Below are positions 4,160-33,432 of a stretch of 34,495 nucleotides of DNA, piece by piece. The position numbers and the translations under genes are program-made. The notes under the pieces were generated by a model. It did not search any database, was not told where the DNA came from, and saw nothing but the letters and a program-made list of their open reading frames with translations. This DNA is from an uncultured Eubacteriales bacterium (GTDB lineage: Bacteria > Bacillota > Clostridia > Oscillospirales > Acutalibacteraceae), in the NCBI GenBank assembly GCA_900314795.1, contig OMWP01000013.1, forward strand, positions 1-34,495, read 5' to 3'. The first letter of the stretch is position 1. Each line of letters starts with the position of its first letter.

Positions 4160-6861
4160 TTATCAACGTCCACCTGCTGCTGGAACTGCATGATCTCGTT
4201 ATAGATGCGCTCGCAGTTGTTGTGGTCGTCGTAGTGATAGAAGTCGTCAACCCTCGCGATGTACTCGGGCTTCATCTTGCAGCCGTTTTCCATGTATTCG
4301 CACAGGGTGTCGACCAGCATGTCGGAGGTGGTGCAGATCTCGCCGAAGCCCATGGTGTCGTAGAAGAATCCGCCGTCGTCATAATGCGCGGGCAGCTCGT
4401 CGGGGTGGAAGTAGACCAGCGGCTTTTTCATGTACGCAAAGTCGAACTGTACGCCGGAGTAGTCGGTGACCATCAGGCTGGATTCGGTGAGGATCTTCTC
4501 GTAGCTCATGTCGCCGACAGAGGAGATAACCTCCACATACGGGTCGGGCGTGTAGTCGTCCACCTGCGCGCTGAGGATCGGGTGCAGCAGATACTTGATC
4601 TTGTAGCCGGTGCGCTTGGCGGTCTCGATGAGCTTTTGGTTATTGATCAGGTCGTTGTAGATGCGGTAGTAGACCGTGTTCTTGAAGTCGGGGTTATAGG
4701 AGCGCTGTTCACCCTCGCTGGTGGTGACGGGCATCGCGTTGTACATACGCCACGTCGGGGTGATGAGGATCTGCTTTTGGTCGTTGTTGATCAGTCCGTC
4801 GTAGCGGCCGATACCGGTCATCTTGATGATGCCGGTGTCCTTGTAGCCGTAGGCGTGGTTGTTCAGGTTCTTTTCCTCATACTTCGAGGCGATGAAGTAC
4901 ATGCGGGTGTTATCGATGATGCGCTGCTGCGCCATCGCGCACTTCTGCACCGACAGACCGTGCTGCAGGCACATGGTCGGGAAGTTGCACAGATCACGGA
5001 TAAAGCGGCTCTTGTCCAGACTGTAGCCGTTGAAGGGGAAGGTCTGGGAGTTGGTGATCAGCGCGATGTCCGCGTTGAGGAACGCCATCTTATGCTTGAG
5101 GGAACCCGTTTTGACGGGATGCAGACCGTCCTGCTTCATCTGGCGGTAGTCGGAGGTGTTCTTGTCGATGATGTAGTAGCGGGTGATGCCGTCCTTTTTG
5201 TCCTTGCAGTAGCGGTATAGATATTCGCTGCTGTCGCCGCCCTTGTAGAGCTTGTCGTACATCAGCCAGATGCGCTTGTTCTTGTAGAACGGGCGTGTCA
5301 GCCAGTATTCGATACGGGTGATGAAGGTGCGCTTGCTCTCCATGAATACCCGCGGCAGATACTTCAGCTCCGCCTTGAGGGTCTTGCCCGCCGAGGCGTG
5401 CTCGATGACCAGCTCACGGTTGTTGTTGATGGTCGCCATGTATTTGTTGAAGCGCCAGTAGCCGCCCACGGGAGACGCCGCGAACTTCGCCCAGTGATGC
5501 AGGTAGGAGAACTGCAGCGGTACGCGGGTATTCTTGTATTTGGCGAAGAAACAGAGCTTCTGTGTGGAACGGTTATTGTCGAAAGAAAGCTCCAGATGGA
5601 AGGTGAATTTTTTATAGGCACTGATGCCGAAGTACTTGGTGAGCGAGTAGCGGTCGTTATCCTCGAGATCGATCCGCTCGCCGTTCCATTCGGCGTACAG
5701 TGCAATGTTTTTGAGGTTGAATACCTGACGGAAGGAACCGTCCAGCAGCAGCTTGCCGTCGGTGTAGTCGAGAACGTGCAGACCGACGCGCTGTCCCTGC
5801 ATGCGGGCGATGACAACGTCGTTGCAGTCGAGGGTGACGTCCTCGTTGCCCTCGCTTAAATGCTGGGGCATCCTATAGAGGTCGGTATCGTATTTGAGCA
5901 TATAGAACATCTCGGCGGCTTCTTCACTGTAGCCGAGCGCCTTATACTTGCCCGCGTTGAGGATGATGGTGTCGTCGAGCAGATCGAGCACCTTTTTGCA
6001 CGCTTGGAAGAACAGCTCCAGCTCTTCTTCGCTCATGTTGCGCTTGTTGCGGTTGTTCATGTTGGCGAGGAAGCGCGCGGATACCGCGTACATCAGGTAG
6101 AACTGGATGAAAGTGGGAAGGGTGCCGTCGCTGTTTTTGAAGCGCTCGGCAAGCGGGAGCAGGAAATGCTCGATGCTGTCGCGGTACCAGTCGATATCGT
6201 TGGAGGGGACAAAGTACGCCGAGTCGTCGCTCAGCGGCATGAAGGTGTTGAAGTTCGCCGCTTCCATCGCAAAATAGGTGGGATGATCCTGTTGCAGGCG
6301 GAGCATCACATCATGGAAGAATTCAAATTTCAGCGAGGTATCGGCGGGGTATTGTTTGAGCACCGCGCTCTCGATCAGATTACCGTCGATCTCCATTTGC
6401 AGGAGGTTGGGGTAGTCGCGGATGTCCGCCTCTTTGTTGAGCATGAGCGGCGGAACATTGGTGCGGTTGATATATTTGTAGCGCGTGTAGACGGGATTGA
6501 TGCAAAAACGGTTCGGCGCCGCAAAGCACCACGGCTTGTTCGCGCCTACCGATTTAAGGGCGTTCATAAAGTAATGACTGCCGAACACATCGCCCGGTCG
6601 CGCAACGACCGCGTAATCGGCGCTGAGGTTCTCGAGCGCGATGTTGTAGGCTGCTGCCTCACCGCCCGCGCCGGGCTTTTGGATCACGCGCGCGTTCTGA
6701 TAAGCACTGAGCTTATCGGCGGCGTTCTGCTCGGCGGAAGTGTCGATGACCAGCAGTTCGATCTCACCGGTGTTGACGTTTCTCTGGTTCTTGACGGATT
6801 CGGCTGTTTTCAGGATCAGGTCTGAGCTCTCGATATATGGAATGATAACGGAGACTGACAT
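4147..6861 (-). CDS. GT2-like and CDP-glycerol glycerophosphotransferase fusion
   Basis: A 904-residue cytoplasmic or peripheral protein. Residues 1-110 resemble a GT-A family 2 fold (SVIIPYIESSD start, ELLVIDTS strand), but where the metal-binding DxD is expected the sequence reads RPGD, so this domain may be inactive. A middle region (about 110-520) is unassigned. Residues about 525-895 match the CDP-glycerol glycerophosphotransferase family (TagB/TagF type): RIWLMYDKLY start, a CLQHGLS segment near 632, GIGRYDGL near 685 and TDYSGVQFDFAY near 800. Such enzymes polymerise polyol-phosphate chains of teichoic acids or capsules. The stop codon lies inside a heptamer repeat, so the last residues (MRS) are repeat-encoded. 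The start has AAAGGGG upstream. Exact substrate unknown. Confidence 0.88.
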   Translation of the reverse strand: MSVSVIIPYIESSDLILKTAESVKNQRNVNTGEIELLVIDTSAEQNAADKLSAYQNARVIQKPGAGGEAAAYNIALENLSADYAVVARPGDVFGSHYFMNALKSVGANKPWCFAAPNRFCINPVYTRYKYINRTNVPPLMLNKEADIRDYPNLLQMEIDGNLIESAVLKQYPADTSLKFEFFHDVMLRLQQDHPTYFAMEAANFNTFMPLSDDSAYFVPSNDIDWYRDSIEHFLLPLAERFKNSDGTLPTFIQFYLMYAVSARFLANMNNRNKRNMSEEELELFFQACKKVLDLLDDTIILNAGKYKALGYSEEAAEMFYMLKYDTDLYRMPQHLSEGNEDVTLDCNDVVIARMQGQRVGLHVLDYTDGKLLLDGSFRQVFNLKNIALYAEWNGERIDLEDNDRYSLTKYFGISAYKKFTFHLELSFDNNRSTQKLCFFAKYKNTRVPLQFSYLHHWAKFAASPVGGYWRFNKYMATINNNRELVIEHASAGKTLKAELKYLPRVFMESKRTFITRIEYWLTRPFYKNKRIWLMYDKLYKGGDSSEYLYRYCKDKKDGITRYYIIDKNTSDYRQMKQDGLHPVKTGSLKHKMAFLNADIALITNSQTFPFNGYSLDKSRFIRDLCNFPTMCLQHGLSVQKCAMAQQRIIDNTRMYFIASKYEEKNLNNHAYGYKDTGIIKMTGIGRYDGLINNDQKQILITPTWRMYNAMPVTTSEGEQRSYNPDFKNTVYYRIYNDLINNQKLIETAKRTGYKIKYLLHPILSAQVDDYTPDPYVEVISSVGDMSYEKILTESSLMVTDYSGVQFDFAYMKKPLVYFHPDELPAHYDDGGFFYDTMGFGEICTTSDMLVDTLCEYMENGCKMKPEYIARVDDFYHYDDHNNCERIYNEIMQFQQQVDVDKMRS

Positions 6862-18274: not shown

Positions 18275-18537
18275 ATGTATGCGCATATTTCTTCCGTATT
18301 TCTCAGCCTTGCGCCAGTGTTCCGTATCCTGCGCCAATCTTCCGTAGGATGGGATGATTTCCGTTTTGTCTTTCGATAATCCGTGAAAACATTACCGAAA
18401 AATCCATCCACACCCCGACAAACGCATGCAGTCATTTCCGCTATACTTAGGACAAGATCAATGTGAAATCCGTCTGTTTCTTTGCGGGAGGAACGATTCT
18501 CCCCTGCAAATCCGGCGGATCAAAAAGGAATGATAAA

Positions 18538-20871
18538 ATGTCTGTTGTACAAGCTGTTCGGGGTGGTCGTGCCCGCGGAAAGGAACATTCGGCGCGGAAT
18601 GTCGCGCGGGAGGTGGTCATCCATATCTCCTGCTTCTTGGTAGGCGGCGTGGTGTCGCGCGGCGCGACCTTGGGTGAGCTGTCGCCGTTCGGCGCGTCGG
18701 TGGTGGCGGCATTGCCGTTTACTTACATGCCGGCGGGGATGCTCGGCGCGGCGCTGAGCTATTTGTTCGCGTCACCCGTATCGTCCTTTCGGTACATTGC
18801 GGTGGTGGTATCCATCGGGGCGATCCGCTGGGTGCTGAATGAGATCAAAAAGCTCTCCGACAGCCGCTTTTTTGCGCCTGCGGTCGCCTTTATCCCGATC
18901 TTCGCGACGGGGATCGCCCTGACTTTTTCGGCAAAAAGTGAGATGACCGAGGTGGTCGAGTGCGTGATCGAGGGGCTGATCGCGGCGGCGGGAGCGTACT
19001 TTATGAGCCGTGCCGCACAGCTCTTCTCGTCCAAAAGAGCGCTGTCGGGCTTCTCACAGCAGGAGCTGAGCTGTCTGTCGATGAGCGGCTGTATCCTGCT
19101 GTTGTCGCTGTCGCGCGTGATGATCGGCACGGTGTCGGTCGGCAGGATCCTCGCCGTACTGTTGGTGCTGTTATTCGCGCGCTATGGGATGGTCAAGGGC
19201 GGCAGTATCGCGGGGATCGCGACGGGCGCAGTGTTTGCGTTGTCGGACGCCAAGCTGTTATTCTTGGCGGCGGGCTACTCGCTGTCGGGGTTGATCGGCG
19301 GACTGCTCGCGCCGATGGGGAAGGCGGCGGTGATCTTTGCCGCGGTGATCTGCAATACGATGTTTGCGTTCGCGTCACCCGATCGGGCGATGGTGCTGTC
19401 GGTTGCGATCGAAAGCGCCGTGGCGTCGGGGCTTTTCCTGCTGATCCCGAAGGACGCGGGTAACTTTCTCTCGACGGTGTTCACCGATGACGGCGCGCGC
19501 ACCTCACAGGAGGCGATCCGCCGTAATGTGACCATGCGTCTGGAGCATTGCTCCAAGGCGCTCGATAACGTCAGCTCCTGCGTCAACGCGGTGTCGGACA
19601 GGCTCGCAAAGCTCTATGAGCCAAACGCGGACACGATCTATGAACGTGCTGCCGACTACACCTGCAAGAGTTGCGGACTTCGTGCCTACTGCTGGGAGAA
19701 GGAGCGCGGGCTGACGATGGATGATTTTCACCGCCTGACAGACGCGTTGAAGAAGCGCGGCTTCGTCAAGGAGAAGGATATCGAGGACAACTTTATCAAG
19801 CGGTGCTGCAAGTCGTCGGAGCTTACGCGGAGCATCAACCGCAGTTACCGCGAGTACCAGTCGCTGGAGGCGGCGCGTCATCGGATCACCGCGGTGCGAA
19901 GCGTAGTAGCGGGTCAGTTCGCGGGACTGAGCGATATATTGCACGACCTGTCACAGGAATTCGCGGCGGTAGAGGGCTATGATGAGGCGCGTGCCGAGCG
20001 GGTGATCGAGGCGCTGTCGGCAGAGGGGCTGACGGTAGCGGATTGCTCCTGCCGAACGGGTGAGGTCAGCGGCATGACCGTGGAGATCGAGATCATCGTC
20101 GGCAAAAAGACCGCGCTCTCCAAGACGCTCTTACTGCGGGTCGTCAATCGCGCCTGCGGACGGTATTTCGAGAGCCCCGAGCTGAGCTTTGAGGGTGATC
20201 GGGCACGGGTGGTGATGTGTGAGATGCCGCTTTATGACCTCGAGATCGGCTCGGCACAGCATGTGTGCGATGACGGCGAGTTATGCGGCGACTGTCTGAA
20301 TTACTTTGTGAACGGCGCGGGCAGTACCGTGGCGCTGATCTCGGACGGCATGGGCTGCGGCGGTAGAGCGGCGGTGGACGCGAATATGGCGGTCAGCATC
20401 ATGTCGAAGCTCTGCAAGGCGGGGCTGAGCTATGACTGCGCCTTGGCGGTGACGAATTCCTCGCTGATGATCAAGAGTGAGGAGGAGTCGCTCGCGACGA
20501 TGGACTTGATGGATTTCAACTGCTTTACAGGAAGAGCAGGACTGATGAAGGCGGGCGCCTGTACGACTTATATCAAAAAGAACGGCAAGCTGCTGCCAAA
20601 GGAAATGCCCTCCCTGCCGCTCGGGATCCTGAACGAAGCCCGATTCAGCAAAGAGGACGTTGTGTTGACCAAGGATGACTGGATCGTGATGGTGTCGGAC
20701 GGCGTGATGATCGGCTCCCCCGAATGGATCGAAAAGCTGATCCTGAGTTGGCGCGAGGGCAGCGCCGAGCAGCTCGCCGCGCAGATCGTCAACGAAGCGC
20801 AAAAGCGCAGGAAGAACGACCACGACGACGACATCACCGCCATCGCGATGCGGGTGGTGGAGAACGGGTGA
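18538..20871 (+). CDS. spoIIE: Stage II sporulation protein E (phosphatase)
   Basis: 777 residues. The N-terminal 25-310 region has about ten membrane helices, a central cytoplasmic region (about 310-560) carries the Cys cluster C376-x2-C379-x5-C385, and the C-terminus is a PP2C-type phosphatase with ISDGMGCGG (D603, G604) and VSDGVM (D721) metal ligands. In the family it dephosphorylates SpoIIAA to release sigma-F in the forespore and acts at the polar septum. ATG 18538 has AAAGGAA 7 nt upstream; an in-frame start at 18463 has no ribosome site. It marks the organism as a likely endospore former. It stands alone, ended by a strong hairpin. Confidence 0.95.
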   Translation: MSVVQAVRGGRARGKEHSARNVAREVVIHISCFLVGGVVSRGATLGELSPFGASVVAALPFTYMPAGMLGAALSYLFASPVSSFRYIAVVVSIGAIRWVLNEIKKLSDSRFFAPAVAFIPIFATGIALTFSAKSEMTEVVECVIEGLIAAAGAYFMSRAAQLFSSKRALSGFSQQELSCLSMSGCILLLSLSRVMIGTVSVGRILAVLLVLLFARYGMVKGGSIAGIATGAVFALSDAKLLFLAAGYSLSGLIGGLLAPMGKAAVIFAAVICNTMFAFASPDRAMVLSVAIESAVASGLFLLIPKDAGNFLSTVFTDDGARTSQEAIRRNVTMRLEHCSKALDNVSSCVNAVSDRLAKLYEPNADTIYERAADYTCKSCGLRAYCWEKERGLTMDDFHRLTDALKKRGFVKEKDIEDNFIKRCCKSSELTRSINRSYREYQSLEAARHRITAVRSVVAGQFAGLSDILHDLSQEFAAVEGYDEARAERVIEALSAEGLTVADCSCRTGEVSGMTVEIEIIVGKKTALSKTLLLRVVNRACGRYFESPELSFEGDRARVVMCEMPLYDLEIGSAQHVCDDGELCGDCLNYFVNGAGSTVALISDGMGCGGRAAVDANMAVSIMSKLCKAGLSYDCALAVTNSSLMIKSEEESLATMDLMDFNCFTGRAGLMKAGACTTYIKKNGKLLPKEMPSLPLGILNEARFSKEDVVLTKDDWIVMVSDGVMIGSPEWIEKLILSWREGSAEQLAAQIVNEAQKRRKNDHDDDITAIAMRVVENG

Positions 20872-28128: not shown

Positions 28129-28632
28129 ATGAAACGGATCATTTCGTTATTACTTGCTGTGATGCTCATTCTGTCGGTTGCTATGATGACCGGTTGCAAG
28201 AAGAGTGAGAAAAAGGCTGAATCCGTCAGTACTTCCGGTACTTCGAGTGGATTGAGCGCGGCATCGGTTCCCGAGGGTGCAACACCTATTGCGACCACCG
28301 CCGAGGGTAACGCTACCGGTTACACGAAGTTTGATAAGGATGAAAAAGACCGTGTCGTGCGCAACTATACCTATGATTCACTCGGCAAGCTGCAGGGTTC
28401 GATCGGCTATGAATATGACGACAAGGATAATGTCGCCAAGGAGATCCACTATAACACCGATGGTACCATCAACACGCAGATCGTATATGAGCGCAACGAA
28501 AAAGGCTTTGAGACCAAGCGTACCGAAATGGACGCCAATGGTAAGGTCAAGTTCAGCGTTGTGACTACCTTTAATGAGGACGGTACCTCCAGCCGCACCA
28601 AGTATGACGCGGACGGTAAAGAGATCAAATAA
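28129..28632 (+). CDS. Small lipoprotein with YD-like repeats
   Basis: 167 residues. A lipoprotein signal peptide ends in MMTGC with lipidated C23, followed by a Ser/Thr/Lys-rich spacer (24-65). Residues about 68-167 contain tandem strands of the type YDSLGKLQGSIGYEYDDKDN, YNTDGTINTQIVYERNEKG and MDANGKVKFSVVTTFNEDG, about 22-24 residues each, like a short run of RHS/YD-type beta repeats. It should be anchored outside on the membrane. Function unknown; short repeat lipoproteins like this are too small to be RHS toxins. GGAGAGG precedes the ATG. It is a single-gene unit with its own promoter and terminator. Confidence 0.85.
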   Translation: MKRIISLLLAVMLILSVAMMTGCKKSEKKAESVSTSGTSSGLSAASVPEGATPIATTAEGNATGYTKFDKDEKDRVVRNYTYDSLGKLQGSIGYEYDDKDNVAKEIHYNTDGTINTQIVYERNEKGFETKRTEMDANGKVKFSVVTTFNEDGTSSRTKYDADGKEIK

Positions 28633-28868: not shown

Positions 28869-29519
28869 TTATTCACACAATCCGCGCAGCTCGGTGATCG
28901 CTTGTTTCGTGTCGGGTGCGCCGAATACCGCTGTGCCCGCAACGCAGATATCCACGCCTGCTTTTGCGGCGGTGGCGATGGTATCCTTGGCGATGCCGCC
29001 GTCCACCTCGATCAGGGTAGAGAGCCCGCGTCGCATGATCTCCTCCTTGAGGAAGGTGACCTTCTCCATCATATCGGGCATGAAGCTCTGTCCGCCAAAG
29101 CCCGGCTCCACCGTCATCACCAGCACCATGTACAGCCTGTCGAGATACGGCAGGACAACGTCGGGCGCGGTGCCCGGCTTGATTGCGAGGGCAGGCTTGA
29201 CGCCGCGCGCTTCGATCAGCTTCAGGGTCTCGTCGATGTCGCTGTCGGACTCGGTGTGGAAGGAGATGATGTCCGCGCCCGCGTCGGCAAAATCATTGAT
29301 ATAGCGGTGCGGTTCACTGATCATCAAGTGTACGTCAAAGGTCTTTTCGGTTGCCCCTCTTAGCTTTTTGATGACCGGTGCGCCGAAGGTGAGGTTCGGC
29401 ACAAAGTGACCGTCCATGACGTCGAGATGCATGATATCCGCGCCGCCCTTGTCGATACGGACGATCTCGTCACGGAACACGGAAAAATCACAGGATAACA
29501 GAGATGGTGCAATTAACAT
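28869..29519 (-). CDS. rpe: Ribulose-phosphate 3-epimerase
   Basis: 216 residues, the usual length. It interconverts ribulose 5-phosphate and xylulose 5-phosphate in the pentose phosphate pathway. TIM-barrel signatures: APSLLSCDF start, HLDVMDGHFVPN with metal ligands H31 and D33, DVHLMI with H64, VEPGFGGQSF and EVDGGI (phosphate and Asp). It is close to a large membrane gene on the same strand but separated by a repeat. In many Firmicutes rpe sits next to rsgA and a PASTA kinase; here it does not. Confidence 0.96.
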   Translation of the reverse strand: MLIAPSLLSCDFSVFRDEIVRIDKGGADIMHLDVMDGHFVPNLTFGAPVIKKLRGATEKTFDVHLMISEPHRYINDFADAGADIISFHTESDSDIDETLKLIEARGVKPALAIKPGTAPDVVLPYLDRLYMVLVMTVEPGFGGQSFMPDMMEKVTFLKEEIMRRGLSTLIEVDGGIAKDTIATAAKAGVDICVAGTAVFGAPDTKQAITELRGLCE

Positions 29520-29709: not shown

Positions 29710-32373
29710 TTACGGTCGTCTGACCAGCTCGGCGATGAGGGTCGCGGCGACCCAGAAGCCGATGTAGATCAAAAGCTCTACGACCGACAGTCGTGCGACT
29801 GAGGCATACAGCGCGAGGGTCGCGCACAGCAGGATGCCCAGTATCATGCCGAAGATCTCGATCACAATACCCAGACTGATGTTGGACTTGACGCCGATAC
29901 ATCCGCCCACGGCGCGTGCCAGAGAGCCGATGCGTCCACGCGTCGCGACATAGGCGCGCGAGGCTTCCTCGACCTTTTCGGTGGCTTCATCAATGACGGT
30001 AGAGTAGCCCGGTGCGGTGACCTTGACCGAACGATAGAAGATCTCATAGCGGTTGGCGATCAGCTCGGGGGTGATGTTGGCGTCGGTCGTGCTGACGACC
30101 AGTGCCAGACCGCTGCTCTCGGCGCGTTGGATCTGTGTTTTGAGCGGTTCTGCCGCTTCATAGGACAGCCCCAGCACCGCGATCGCCTGTCCCGCGACCG
30201 CAACATAGGCGATCTCAAGACCGCTGCCCCGCTTTTTGAAGGGCACCTCAGCGGTGGGGATGGTGATGTGATAACGGTTCATCAGCTTCATGTTGCCGAT
30301 GAGGATGCGCTCGCCCTTGATCCAGCCGACCACACCGCTCTTGTCCTCATACATCACGCTTTCGACAGCGGGCAGGACGTTATTGTTCTCCATCGCCAGC
30401 TCATCAAACGCCGGCGCGATAGGAGAATTAGCCTCGCGCAGTACCGCGGTGGCGAGCAGCAGGTTCTCGCTGATTCTGTACTGTTGCAGCGGATACATCT
30501 CTTCGAGCTTGACGGAGCCGTTGGGGAAGAGGTCGGTGGCGTTCATCATCACGGCGTTGGTGTCACAGAATTGGCGTACCGACGGATAGCCGGCTACCAT
30601 CGCGTCCTCGCGCAGCATCTTGCGGCTGAACAACAGCATGGGCAGGTTGCCTGCGAGCATGCCCGTGAAGGGAATGCCGATACACAGCATGACCGTCAGC
30701 GCCGATACCGCACCCTGGACGCTCTTGAAGATGATCGCGTAGAGGATGGTGACGATGACGGAGCTGATGATCGCGATCGGCGCCATTTTACCGGTGAGCT
30801 CTTCGCTCGGGTCGGGCGCGTAAGAGATCTTCAAGAAGTCCGATAAAAAGCGGGTGACATGCTGGTAGGCGACGACTCCTTTGGATGAGGTGGTGCCGCT
30901 GACCAGCCGACGTGCCGTTTCGACGTCATCGTATATTTTTGCCGCATAGGCAGGAGAATGGTCGTTGATAAAGGTAAAGTTGCTCTTGACCCTCAGCGCC
31001 ATCAGCAGTCTGCCTGTCGCGTTCAGAATCAGCGCAAACGCCACGACAAAGCTGTACAGATGGTGATCACCTCCGACGAATGAGGTGGAGGTAAAGAGGG
31101 AAACAAGGCATTGTATGAAGCACCCCAGATACGCGAGCGCGATCACGGTGCTGCAATTGGATTTGAAGCGTGCCAAAGGCTTGAGCCCGTCGATCAGAGT
31201 ATGCCGTGCCACCAGTCCCAGCGCGAAGGTCAGGATCAGATACAGACCGCAGAAGGTGAAGGCGCTTCCGGGACCGTTCGCAGCGACGGTCGCCGCGCCT
31301 GCCATGCGTTCCCAGATCGTCAGACCGAGCATGGCGATACCGATGAGCAGCGCCAGCAGCAGATGGGTGAGCTGGTGTTTGATGTTTTGGCGGGTGGTCT
31401 CAAATATGTACTGCACATCTTCATTACTGTTGTAGTCCATCGAGCGCACCTGCTCGTTTTCAGACGGCGTGGTAAAGCCCGATGAAATGACAGCGCCCAG
31501 TACACGGAAGAACTTAGCGACACGCGAGCGCTTCTTTTTCTTGGGCTTGGGCGCTTCTTCGTCAAAATTGTTGCGCATGATCTCTTTGTTCTTCTGTTTT
31601 TGTGCCGATTCGGTCTTGTGACGCGCGGCGATCTGCGTGAGGGTATACAGCAGACTCTGGTGCGGTCTGACCATCGGCTTGGTCGCGTGATAATTCCCCG
31701 AGATGGTGGGATCGGTGGATTTGAGATATTCGTCGTACTCACTTTCGACGACATCGGTGAAGCGACCCGCTTTGAGGTACAGCTTTTCGACGCTTTCCTC
31801 GTGCTGATACACGGGAATGGTCTCCACGATCGTATCACCTGTGGGCGTGTAGGGCTTTGTCGGTTTTTTGGAAGCATGCGATTCATGATGCTCCGCGTAT
31901 TGTGCCGACTTTTGAGGCTCGCCGGGATTGTCTGCGGGGTCGAGGCTGACGTCGATCTCATCGATATCCTGTACATAGATGTTGCGCAGCTTCTTGACGT
32001 CTACAACATCCTCGATGATATCCTCGGCGACGGTCGCTTTGGGGTCGAACTCCGGCTCGAGGGTGACCTCGGGCGCGTTGACCTTTTCGGGCATGCTGAA
32101 CTCCAGCTTACCGCGGATCAGCTCGTCCTTGGTGACCTCCTTACGCCGTGCCGCCGCTTCTTCCTCGAGCGGCTGATGACGGCGGAATTTCACCTGTTTA
32201 TCTTTTGTGGAGTAGATCTCCTCCATCTTGTTGTCGAGAGACTGTGAGGATGAGTCGTATGCCGCCTCGTTGATATCAGTCAGCTCGTCCTCTGCCGAGT
32301 TCTCGACAGGGAGTTCGATGATACCGTCGGATTTGTCCTTGTTATCTCCTCTGTCCCAGCGGAATATGCTCAT
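29710..32373 (-). CDS. Degenerate P-type-ATPase-like membrane protein
   Basis: About 887 residues. A long charged, probably disordered N-terminus (1-300) precedes eight helices in pairs: about 330-354/367-392, 405-425/435-457, 525-545/550-578 and 833-858/863-885, the layout of P1B ATPases. After helix six comes LLFSRKMLREDAMVAGYPSV, then D604 in CDTNAVMM where DKTGT should be. N-domain-like parts follow: ENLLLATAVLREANSPIAPAF, GVVGWIKGERILIGN (K686) and GQAIAVLGLSYEAAEPLK, then STTDANIT where TGD is expected. No TGE loop (about 70 residues between helices four and five) and no GDGxND. So it should not pump by the normal cycle; a binding, sensor or scaffold role is inference. GGAG lies upstream of ATG 32371-32373. 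Confidence 0.72.
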   Translation of the reverse strand: MSIFRWDRGDNKDKSDGIIELPVENSAEDELTDINEAAYDSSSQSLDNKMEEIYSTKDKQVKFRRHQPLEEEAAARRKEVTKDELIRGKLEFSMPEKVNAPEVTLEPEFDPKATVAEDIIEDVVDVKKLRNIYVQDIDEIDVSLDPADNPGEPQKSAQYAEHHESHASKKPTKPYTPTGDTIVETIPVYQHEESVEKLYLKAGRFTDVVESEYDEYLKSTDPTISGNYHATKPMVRPHQSLLYTLTQIAARHKTESAQKQKNKEIMRNNFDEEAPKPKKKKRSRVAKFFRVLGAVISSGFTTPSENEQVRSMDYNSNEDVQYIFETTRQNIKHQLTHLLLALLIGIAMLGLTIWERMAGAATVAANGPGSAFTFCGLYLILTFALGLVARHTLIDGLKPLARFKSNCSTVIALAYLGCFIQCLVSLFTSTSFVGGDHHLYSFVVAFALILNATGRLLMALRVKSNFTFINDHSPAYAAKIYDDVETARRLVSGTTSSKGVVAYQHVTRFLSDFLKISYAPDPSEELTGKMAPIAIISSVIVTILYAIIFKSVQGAVSALTVMLCIGIPFTGMLAGNLPMLLFSRKMLREDAMVAGYPSVRQFCDTNAVMMNATDLFPNGSVKLEEMYPLQQYRISENLLLATAVLREANSPIAPAFDELAMENNNVLPAVESVMYEDKSGVVGWIKGERILIGNMKLMNRYHITIPTAEVPFKKRGSGLEIAYVAVAGQAIAVLGLSYEAAEPLKTQIQRAESSGLALVVSTTDANITPELIANRYEIFYRSVKVTAPGYSTVIDEATEKVEEASRAYVATRGRIGSLARAVGGCIGVKSNISLGIVIEIFGMILGILLCATLALYASVARLSVVELLIYIGFWVAATLIAELVRRP

Positions 32374-32392
32374 GTTTCTCATCTCCTTTATG

Positions 32393-32565
32393 TGTCACGC
32401 AAGGCGTGACAGTGATGTTTTGCATTTCAGCAAAGTGATGTGCGCACTGCGCGTGATGAGTGAAGTTTGCCTTACGGCAAGTTGCGGGAGGGCATATTGC
32501 CCTCACCCGATTTGATATCGATCGAAAACGCGACAGCATTTTCGATCACCGTTCACCGTTAACCC
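32393..32565. repeat. String of small hairpins and solo heptamer arm
   Basis: Four palindromes in a row: TGTCACGC/GCGTGACA (32393-32411), TTGCC/GGCAA (about 32467-32480), GAGGGCA/TGCCCTC (32488-32504) and GATCGAAAA/TTTTCGATC (32520-32547). They end in TCACCGT, TCACCGT, TAACCCA, like the right arm at 26281. The stretch fills the gap between rlmB and the large membrane protein gene. Confidence 0.65.
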
Positions 32566-32571
32566 AATATG

Positions 32572-33327
32572 TTATCTGCTTTCGGCTACCTTGTACATCA
32601 GGATGCCGGCGGCTACCGAGGCGTTGAGGGAGTTGATCCTGCCCTTCATCGGCAGGGATACGATCACGTCGCATTTTTCACGCACGAGCCGCGAGATCCC
32701 CTTGCCCTCGTTGCCGATGACCAGCGCCGCGCCGCCGCTGAAATTGGTTTTGCGGTAATCCTCACCATTCATGTCCGCGCCGTAGATCCAGATGTTGCGG
32801 CGCTTTAAGTCGTCGATGGTGTCCGCAATGTTGGTCACTCTGGCGACGGGAAGATATTCGAGCGCGCCTGCGGACGCTTTGTAGGCGGTATAGGTCAGCC
32901 CCGCGTTGCGGCGCTTCTTGATGATGACGCCGTGCGCGCCGACACATTCCGCCGAGCGGATGATCGCGCCGAGGTTGTGCGGATCCTCGATCTCATCGAG
33001 GATGATGATAAAGGGCTGCTCTCCGCGTTCCTCTGCGAGGGAGAGGATGTCCTCCACAGAGGCATATTCCTTCATTGCGCAGAGGGCCGCGATCCCTTGA
33101 TGTGCCGCGCCGCCCGTCATGAAGTCCAGCTTTTTGCGCTCGACCTCCTGCACGGGGATACCGGCTTTCTTTGCTTTGGCGGTGATCTCCACCGCGGCGC
33201 CCGATTGGGTGCCCTTGGCGACCATCACCTTGATGATCGAACGCCCTGCGCTGAGCGCTTCGGCGACGGGGTTGCGTCCGATCAGCAGCTCGTCGTTCTG
33301 ATACGGCTGATTCTTTTCGTTATTCAT
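32572..33327 (-). CDS. rlmB: TrmH/SpoU-family 23S rRNA 2'-O-methyltransferase
   Basis: About 251 residues. An N-terminal substrate-binding domain (LLIGRNPVAEALSAGRSIIKVMVAKGT, about 10-40) is followed by the SPOUT knot domain: ILDEIEDPHNLGAIIRSAECVGAHGVI (motif 1 with the catalytic Arg), ALVIGNEGKGISRLV (motif 2) and SLPMKGRINSLNASVAAGI (motif 3). This matches RlmB, which methylates the ribose of a conserved G in the 23S rRNA peptidyl-transferase loop using S-adenosylmethionine. Sister enzymes such as TrmH differ in specificity. The ATG at 33325-33327 has GTAGG 7 nt upstream; one two codons earlier is possible. Confidence 0.92.
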   Translation of the reverse strand: MNNEKNQPYQNDELLIGRNPVAEALSAGRSIIKVMVAKGTQSGAAVEITAKAKKAGIPVQEVERKKLDFMTGGAAHQGIAALCAMKEYASVEDILSLAEERGEQPFIIILDEIEDPHNLGAIIRSAECVGAHGVIIKKRRNAGLTYTAYKASAGALEYLPVARVTNIADTIDDLKRRNIWIYGADMNGEDYRKTNFSGGAALVIGNEGKGISRLVREKCDVIVSLPMKGRINSLNASVAAGILMYKVAESR

Positions 33328-33432
33328 AGGCATACCTACACATTATAATCGTACTTATACCAATACAGTATACCATATATAGTATGCGGCTTTGCTTCTT
33401 AGCAAGAATAAAAGCGAAAAATGAAGAAGAAT

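Follow-up and report, generated by a model that had tools for sequence, protein, structure and literature searches.

The gene and its predicted fold

P-type ATPases are textbook pumps. The window analyzed here, a stretch of 34,495 nucleotides from an uncultured Eubacteriales bacterium (contig OMWP01000013.1), encodes on its minus strand, between rlmB and rpe (28869-29519), a protein shaped like a P1B (heavy-metal) P-type ATPase that is very probably a non-pumping, repurposed P1B-fold protein. The open frame extends from 29710 to 32382 and specifies 890 amino acids (aa) when counted from the ATG at 32382; residue numbers throughout follow this count (protein P0001). The start at 32373, which had been chosen in the original prediction made from the sequence alone, is the better one, since an AAAGGAG found on inspection at 32389-32383 lies 9 nucleotides (nt) ahead of it but abuts the ATG at 32382. 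The features of the locus are collected in Table 1.

The AlphaFold model of the core, whose numbering plus 283 gives the residue number, had a predicted local distance difference test score (pLDDT) of 89.6 and contained the complete P1B architecture, with helices MA, MB, and M1 to M6, a shrunken A (actuator) domain, and P and N domains. The helices span residues 320 to 369 (MA), 371 to 391 (MB, followed by an amphipathic helix at 393 to 405), 412 to 430 (M1), 444 to 473 (M2), 525 to 552 (M3), 555 to 591 (M4), 818 to 860 (M5), and 867 to 887 (M6), in agreement with the eight helices in four pairs read earlier from the sequence. The large cytoplasmic loop was also placed correctly, between M4 and M5, but measures ∼226 residues in the model and not 250. 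Similarly, the M2-M3 loop that should hold the actuator domain is indeed reduced, although to ∼51 residues and not ∼70. Across the corresponding aligned columns (464 to 530), the median length was 67 residues in 81 members of the protein family and 132 in 21 P1B pumps. The predicted model thus has the fold by which the P1B subclass is recognized, eight helices (MA, MB, and M1 to M6) into which the A and P-N domains are inserted.

The closest Protein Data Bank (PDB) matches of the predicted structure were CopA and ATP7B, and the N domain of CopA (2voy_J) superposed on the predicted N domain at 2.2 Å over 115 residues. A search against P1B structures, proposed earlier as a check, therefore did find counterparts for the P and N domains. 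In sequence searches, too, the relation to P1B pumps ranked above that to other P-type ATPases. With the single sequence, phmmer retrieved Legionella CopA (LpCopA, 3rfu) from the PDB at 3e-14, while a profile of the 81 members retrieved 3rfu at 2e-38, P1B pumps at 2e-38 to 3e-5, and other P-types at 6e-5 or weaker. The NCBIfam model for P1B pumps, TIGR01525, matched residues 527 to 782 at 1.9e-13, which is far under its curated cut-off, and a name taken from this weak match would mislabel the protein as a metal pump. A Pfam search of the window protein gave no match above cut-off, and neither Pfam nor NCBIfam held an accepted family for it. The Pfam P-type families likewise had no match across the 81 aligned members, one of which (1/81) had one weak Hydrolase match.

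Table 1. Coordinates of the features at the locus (residues counted from the ATG at 32382)
Feature	Residues	Position	Strand	Basis
Whole gene, putative pseudo-P1B-ATPase	887 aa from ATG 32373	29710..32373	(-)	
Ribosome-binding site AAAGGAG for start 32373		32383..32389	(-)	Sequence
Long cytoplasmic N-terminal tail, predicted disordered	4-319	31426..32373	(-)	AlphaFold pLDDT
Membrane helices MA, MB (with amphipathic helix), M1, and M2	320-473	30964..31425	(-)	Model
Actuator-domain remnant, ∼51 residues, without TGE	474-524	30811..30963	(-)	Model and alignment
Membrane helices M3 and M4; CPC site is I-P-F	570-572 (I-P-F)	30610..30810	(-)	Model and alignment
Pseudo P and N domains	592-817	29932..30609	(-)	NCBIfam, phmmer, model, structure search
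DTNAVM, upstream of the phosphorylation site	607-612	30547..30564	(-)	Alignment
Replaced phosphorylation motif NATDLFP, where P1B pumps have DKTGT[ILV]T	614-620	30523..30543	(-)	Alignment
Conserved N-domain stretch YEDKSGVVGWIKGERILIGN	678-697	30292..30351	(-)	G683 and G696 in 81/81
TGD position, here TTD	765-767	30082..30090	(-)	Asp kept in 77/81, Gly lost
Membrane helices M5 and M6	818-890	29713..29931	(-)	Model
rlmB, 23S rRNA (guanosine-2251-2'-O)-methyltransferase, upstream neighbor		32572..33333	(-)	TIGR00186, 1.4e-75, above cut-off

Catalytic and metal-binding motifs

The alignment comprised 81 members, namely the window protein and 80 loci of its taxonomic family, hand-chosen from 140 matching genomes with pieces at contig edges avoided, and 21 true P1B pumps. 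Of these controls, 10 came from genomes of the same class outside the order (which, from the names of the carrier organisms given below, we take to be Oscillospirales of the Clostridia), 9 from the order, and 2 from the window's own genome. They were selected by the presence of DKTGT, and a 22nd (L257) was removed as a duplicate of L231.

DKTGT was intact in none of the 81 members (the 21 P1B pumps having been selected for it), and its K, G, and second T were absent in all of them; the intact homologs that the original prediction had named as the sign of local decay were therefore not found among the aligned members. The columns of TGE, the dephosphorylation motif of the A domain, were gaps in 81/81 members and read T-G-E in 21/21 P1B pumps, although the letters TGE occurred elsewhere in the protein in 5 members. 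The GDGxND columns were likewise gaps in 81/81 and filled in 21/21, with the pattern GDGx[NED]D found in 0/81, so its reported absence was borne out. The TGD position had been placed correctly at TTDAN; at its Gly column, Gly was outside the five commonest residues among the members. The motif III Lys of the haloacid dehalogenase (HAD) superfamily was found in 0/81 members, the HP His in 1/81, and the N-domain Glu five residues ahead of that His in 0/81, each being present in 21/21 P1B pumps. We take this Glu and His, which bind nucleotide in P1B pumps, to be E1064 and H1069 in ATP7B numbering. Among the metal-site residues, Cys was kept in 2/81 at each flanking column of CPC (21/21 in P1B pumps) and the central Pro in 73/81, while in the NMD motif after MB the N was kept in 44/81 and the D in 65/81, the window reading N-C-S. 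The motifs for phosphorylation, dephosphorylation, Mg binding, and metal binding are thus lost by alignment, and the protein is best described as a pseudoenzyme of P1B descent without the known requirements for being phosphorylated as in the standard pump cycle or for binding copper through CPC.

The phosphorylation site had originally been assigned to DTNAVM. In the alignment, however, the actual site lies seven residues on, at NATDLFP. The phospho-Asp column, N614 in the window, held D in 59/81 members, N in 8/81 including the window, and other residues in 14/81. The position of DKTGTxT was occupied by the pattern D[AS]x[DE][LI][FY]P, with D/N in 67/81, A/S in 69/81, D/E in 75/81, L/I in 78/81, F/Y in 79/81, and P in 56/81. 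The pattern was matched at every position in 41/81 members when either D or N was accepted first and in 38/81 with D first. Beyond this loop, G683, G696, and Y741 were invariant, N697 and R698 were found in 58/81 and 65/81 (N and M in the window), and the first Gly of the N-domain GxG was G in just 24/81.

The N domain might serve a nucleotide-sensing receptor, binding nucleotide or another phosphorylated ligand while the membrane domain relays its state. The kept N-domain fold and the conservation at positions 683, 696, 697, and 698 fit such a receptor, but the nucleotide-binding Glu and His of the P1B pumps are lost and the first Gly of GxG is mostly gone, and we consider it unlikely. The nucleotide or metal sensor version of the original prediction is weakened by the loss of the CPC cysteines and of the Glu and His of the N domain; the point left standing beside it is the retention of pocket glycines 683 and 696 in 81/81 members.

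The membrane path of a P1B pump could alternatively have been reused without ATP, as a channel or carrier. All eight helices are present in the model, and the M4 Pro and the Asp after MB (Ser in the window) are widely kept. This passive or secondary transporter is nevertheless distinctly unlikely, given that the metal ligands of M4 are lost at both CPC columns and that a simple channel would not require such conservation of the P and N domains. A third possibility, with a slim chance of being right, is a new enzyme in which the TGD Asp joins D-x-x-[DE] from the replaced motif in a new HAD-type active site. Asp was indeed frequent at motif I (59/81) and at TGD (77/81), with [DE] three residues on in 75/81. 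Motif I of the window itself, however, carries Asn, the motif III Lys is found in no member, and all 81 have lost the GDGxND segment.

Descent, distribution, and pairing with rlmB

In a FastTree phylogeny of 261 columns, the 81 members formed one clade apart from the 21 P1B pumps, with support 1.0 and a long stem (1.24). The median ratio of nonsynonymous to synonymous substitution rates (dN/dS) of the core was 0.10, with a range of 0.02 to 0.13 (31 pairs with usable dS among the first 160 taken from 793 close pairs), and that of the tail was 0.15 (16 pairs). One open frame including the core was present in 80/80 fetched family loci. The earlier argument for selection rather than decay was thus upheld by the core dN/dS of ∼0.1 and the open frames. 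A decaying pseudogene or sequencing artefact could account for the lost catalytic motifs and for the in-frame TGA in one copy, L228. Newly conserved residues and presence across the order stand against this explanation, whose probability is practically negligible. Local decay of a pump was ruled out by the open frames in 80/80, the absence of DKTGT in 81/81, and the core dN/dS. The L228 copy (order family f23, frame 5256-6557) has one in-frame TGA and is broken, mis-sequenced, or recoded.

Within the family, a search with one sequence matched 140/150 genomes at 1e-3. P-ATPase-like partial matches or a fragment accounted for three of them (G090, G109, and G140), so that at least 137/150 family genomes carry the protein. 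Among order genomes, 284/295 matched at 1e-20 and 270/295 at an E value of ≤1e-45, a threshold fixed after the best match outside the order (1.7e-39) had been seen. In the order and class scans, ≤4 candidates were scored per genome, and spans are known for the matches listed. In a class sample of 291 genomes, the 12 from the order matched across nearly the whole model. In the other 279, among the matches listed, the match began at model position 188 to 191 and ended at ≤508 of 554, with a best value of 1.7e-39. These listed matches covered the M3-N part alone, a region common to true P1B pumps, and ten that were fetched all contained DKTGT and are true P1B pumps. Half (7) of the 14 genomes that had no full member were small (1.0 to 1.4 Mb). 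Carriers included Ruminococcus bromii, Pseudoruminococcus massiliensis, Caproiciproducens faecalis, and Anaeromassilibacillus senegalensis.

The protein is therefore spread through most of the order, and its loss of the motifs is not a matter of local decay. The protein is a pseudoenzyme in that its predicted fold is kept, its catalytic motifs are gone by sequence, and it is under purifying selection; the original inference of a pseudo-pump is thereby sustained, with a P1B fold in the model and the pumping motifs lost in the 81 aligned members. The best explanation is a pseudoenzyme derived from a P1B P-type ATPase that became fixed early within a single order of Clostridia.

In a survey of neighbors within 8 genes, rlmB was found at 74/81 loci and the next most frequent gene, rpe, at 15/81; no family except rlmB exceeded 15/81. 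By profile search, 79/80 family loci have rlmB in the same orientation and ≤1.5 kb upstream, whereas in L083 it is ∼4.3 kb upstream. So placed, rlmB was also found in 69/70 named loci with upstream DNA (10/80 had none; exception, L176). The two counts are not independent, because the last 300 residues of 7/81 family proteins were the same as those of a named locus. The same arrangement was found in 19/19 loci of other order families that had upstream DNA (1/20 had none). The spacing from rlmB to the pseudo-pump gene ranged from short overlaps to 40 bp in 63/74 measured loci and was 189 bp in the window. Order family f10 has a tail-less form of ∼553 aa, for example L217 5736-7394 (-), that is still directly after rlmB. 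Of 12 tested genomes without a detected pseudo-pump, 6 also had no rlmB match and 6 had rlmB; the double absences were not used as evidence, since they may be assembly gaps, the two genes being neighbors in draft genomes. RlmB, a 23S rRNA methyltransferase of the TrmH family, is no relative of the pseudo-pump, and any physical or functional link between the two neighbors is putative.

The gap between the two genes in the window (32383-32575, minus strand) consists of short hairpins in an array, separated by ACATCAC-like spacers, and has a fold z-score of -4.9. Two parts of this gap repeat elsewhere in the genome, with 84% and 76% identity.

Two further explanations could be weighed against the distribution. 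The protein might be a regulatory subunit, or pseudo-partner, of an active P1B paralogue. Two over-cut-off P1B pumps are encoded in the window genome, and one is found in 284/295 order genomes. However, of the 8 order genomes in which TIGR01525 had no match at 1e-70, 7 keep the pseudo-pump (E < 1e-50), and such a subunit has only a very slim chance; the evidence is moderate, as five of those 7 genomes are drafts 47 to 83% complete, G245 being 94% and G299 97% complete. An obligate partnership with an active P1B pump was weakened, and partnership of this kind accounts poorly for the distribution of the pseudo-pump. A role as a sporulation protein was suggested by spoIIE in the same window (18463-20871) and within 8 genes in 5/81 loci, and by spoIIE matches in 261/295 order genomes. 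This role was weakened by genomes without a spoIIE match, since 16 of the 20 listed (34 in total) that lacked one at 1e-20 keep the pseudo-pump at E < 1e-45, and we regard it as highly improbable; it, too, fits the distribution poorly. The test is soft, because 0/295 order genomes pass the model's own cut-off and draft gaps could explain some of the absences.

The N-terminal tail and possible function

In the full-length AlphaFold model, ∼256 of residues 1 to 313 (887-aa numbering) fell in segments with a pLDDT of <50. The tail of ∼300 residues described earlier is thus N-terminal and predicted to be disordered, but it is not unusual, the 81 members having 30 to 1093 residues ahead of residue 330. 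In 27/81 members, the pattern [FYWPT][ST][VLIMF][DE][DEN][IL][LID] occurred among the 140 residues nearest the N terminus, compared with 0.07 in shuffles. A second motif, resembling DD[IL]YYGLQLKP[LI][DE]EY, was found in about 12 to 15 of the 81 tails (L190, L071, L056, and others). Relatives of the R. bromii group have an EIFSN...RL.N.NPL block. A docking motif shared with other proteins was sought with profile A4 in 10 genomes and rejected, the pseudo-pump being the only good match (E of 3e-7 to 5e-6) and the next standing at 0.13.

The repurposed P1B-fold protein may have kept its membrane domain as an anchor while giving up uphill ion movement. The P and N domains would then act as a binding module in place of the kinase/phosphatase cycle, with a contact site formed by D[AS]x[DE][LI][FY]P and the retained glycine-rich face of the N domain. 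The long disordered tail, where present, could recruit a cytoplasmic partner through its short motifs, so that the whole would be a membrane scaffold, possibly switched by a ligand. This narrower reading, a scaffold or sensor whose tail recruits a partner, has, in our judgment, about an even chance of being correct. A fuller combination, in which a non-pumping receptor or scaffold was fixed order-wide, the phosphorylation loop was rebuilt as a contact site, the tail recruits partners, and the strict rlmB pairing stems from a genuine connection of ribosome maturation with the membrane, is conceivable but improbable as a whole.

Several observations weigh against the scaffold reading or its parts. 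The first tail-motif pattern was composed after the sequences had been viewed, and 54/81 members, the window included, do not contain it. No tail motif takes a confident position in the full-length model, which does not favor docking of the tail on the core. Order family f10 is practically tail-less, with frames of ∼550 to 600 aa among the matches listed; since the tail is missing in some members, it cannot be the entire function. The full replacement motif is present in about half of the members (41/81), and some use of the Asp residues kept at the DKTGT (59/81) and TGD (77/81) positions may persist, to judge from the alignment. Of the 793 close pairs, the dN/dS estimate took in the first 160, among which 31 were usable, and 25/295 order genomes had no match (11) or a weaker one (14). 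Finally, six genomes retain rlmB without the pseudo-pump, which implies that the pseudo-pump is dispensable, that RlmB is independent of it, and that any coupling is not obligatory.

Compared with Legionella CopA (3rfu, 4bbj) and human ATP7B, the pseudo-pump shares MA, MB, M1 to M6, the positions of the A, P, and N domains, the M4 Pro, and a Gly-rich N domain. In contrast to both, it has no DKTGT, TGE, GDGxND, CPC, HP His, or motif III Lys, its TGD is cut to T.D, its A domain is about half as long, and it mostly carries a long disordered N-terminal tail. A precedent for a degenerate P-type domain is found in Plasmodium guanylate cyclase beta (GC-beta), which is described with a degenerate P4-ATPase domain (PMC6592433). 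That domain is eukaryotic, of the P4 (lipid flippase) type, and fused to a cyclase, whereas the pseudo-pump is P1B-like, stand-alone, bacterial, and order-wide. No bacterial pseudo-P-type or inactive P-type ATPase was found in the open-access literature searched, and the available part of a review of P-type ATPases (PMC10654040) mentions no bacterial pseudo-pump. A P1B-fold family that has lost the known catalytic and metal motifs and is nevertheless retained in most genomes of a large order would demonstrate that this fold can be remodeled to serve a different function. Its close pairing with rlmB gives genetics a direct point of entry in cultured relatives, R. bromii among them.

Elsewhere in the window, a 167-aa protein encoded at 28129-28632 on the plus strand, with zero Pfam or NCBIfam matches, has a lipoprotein-like N terminus and, by eye, YD/RHS-like repeats.

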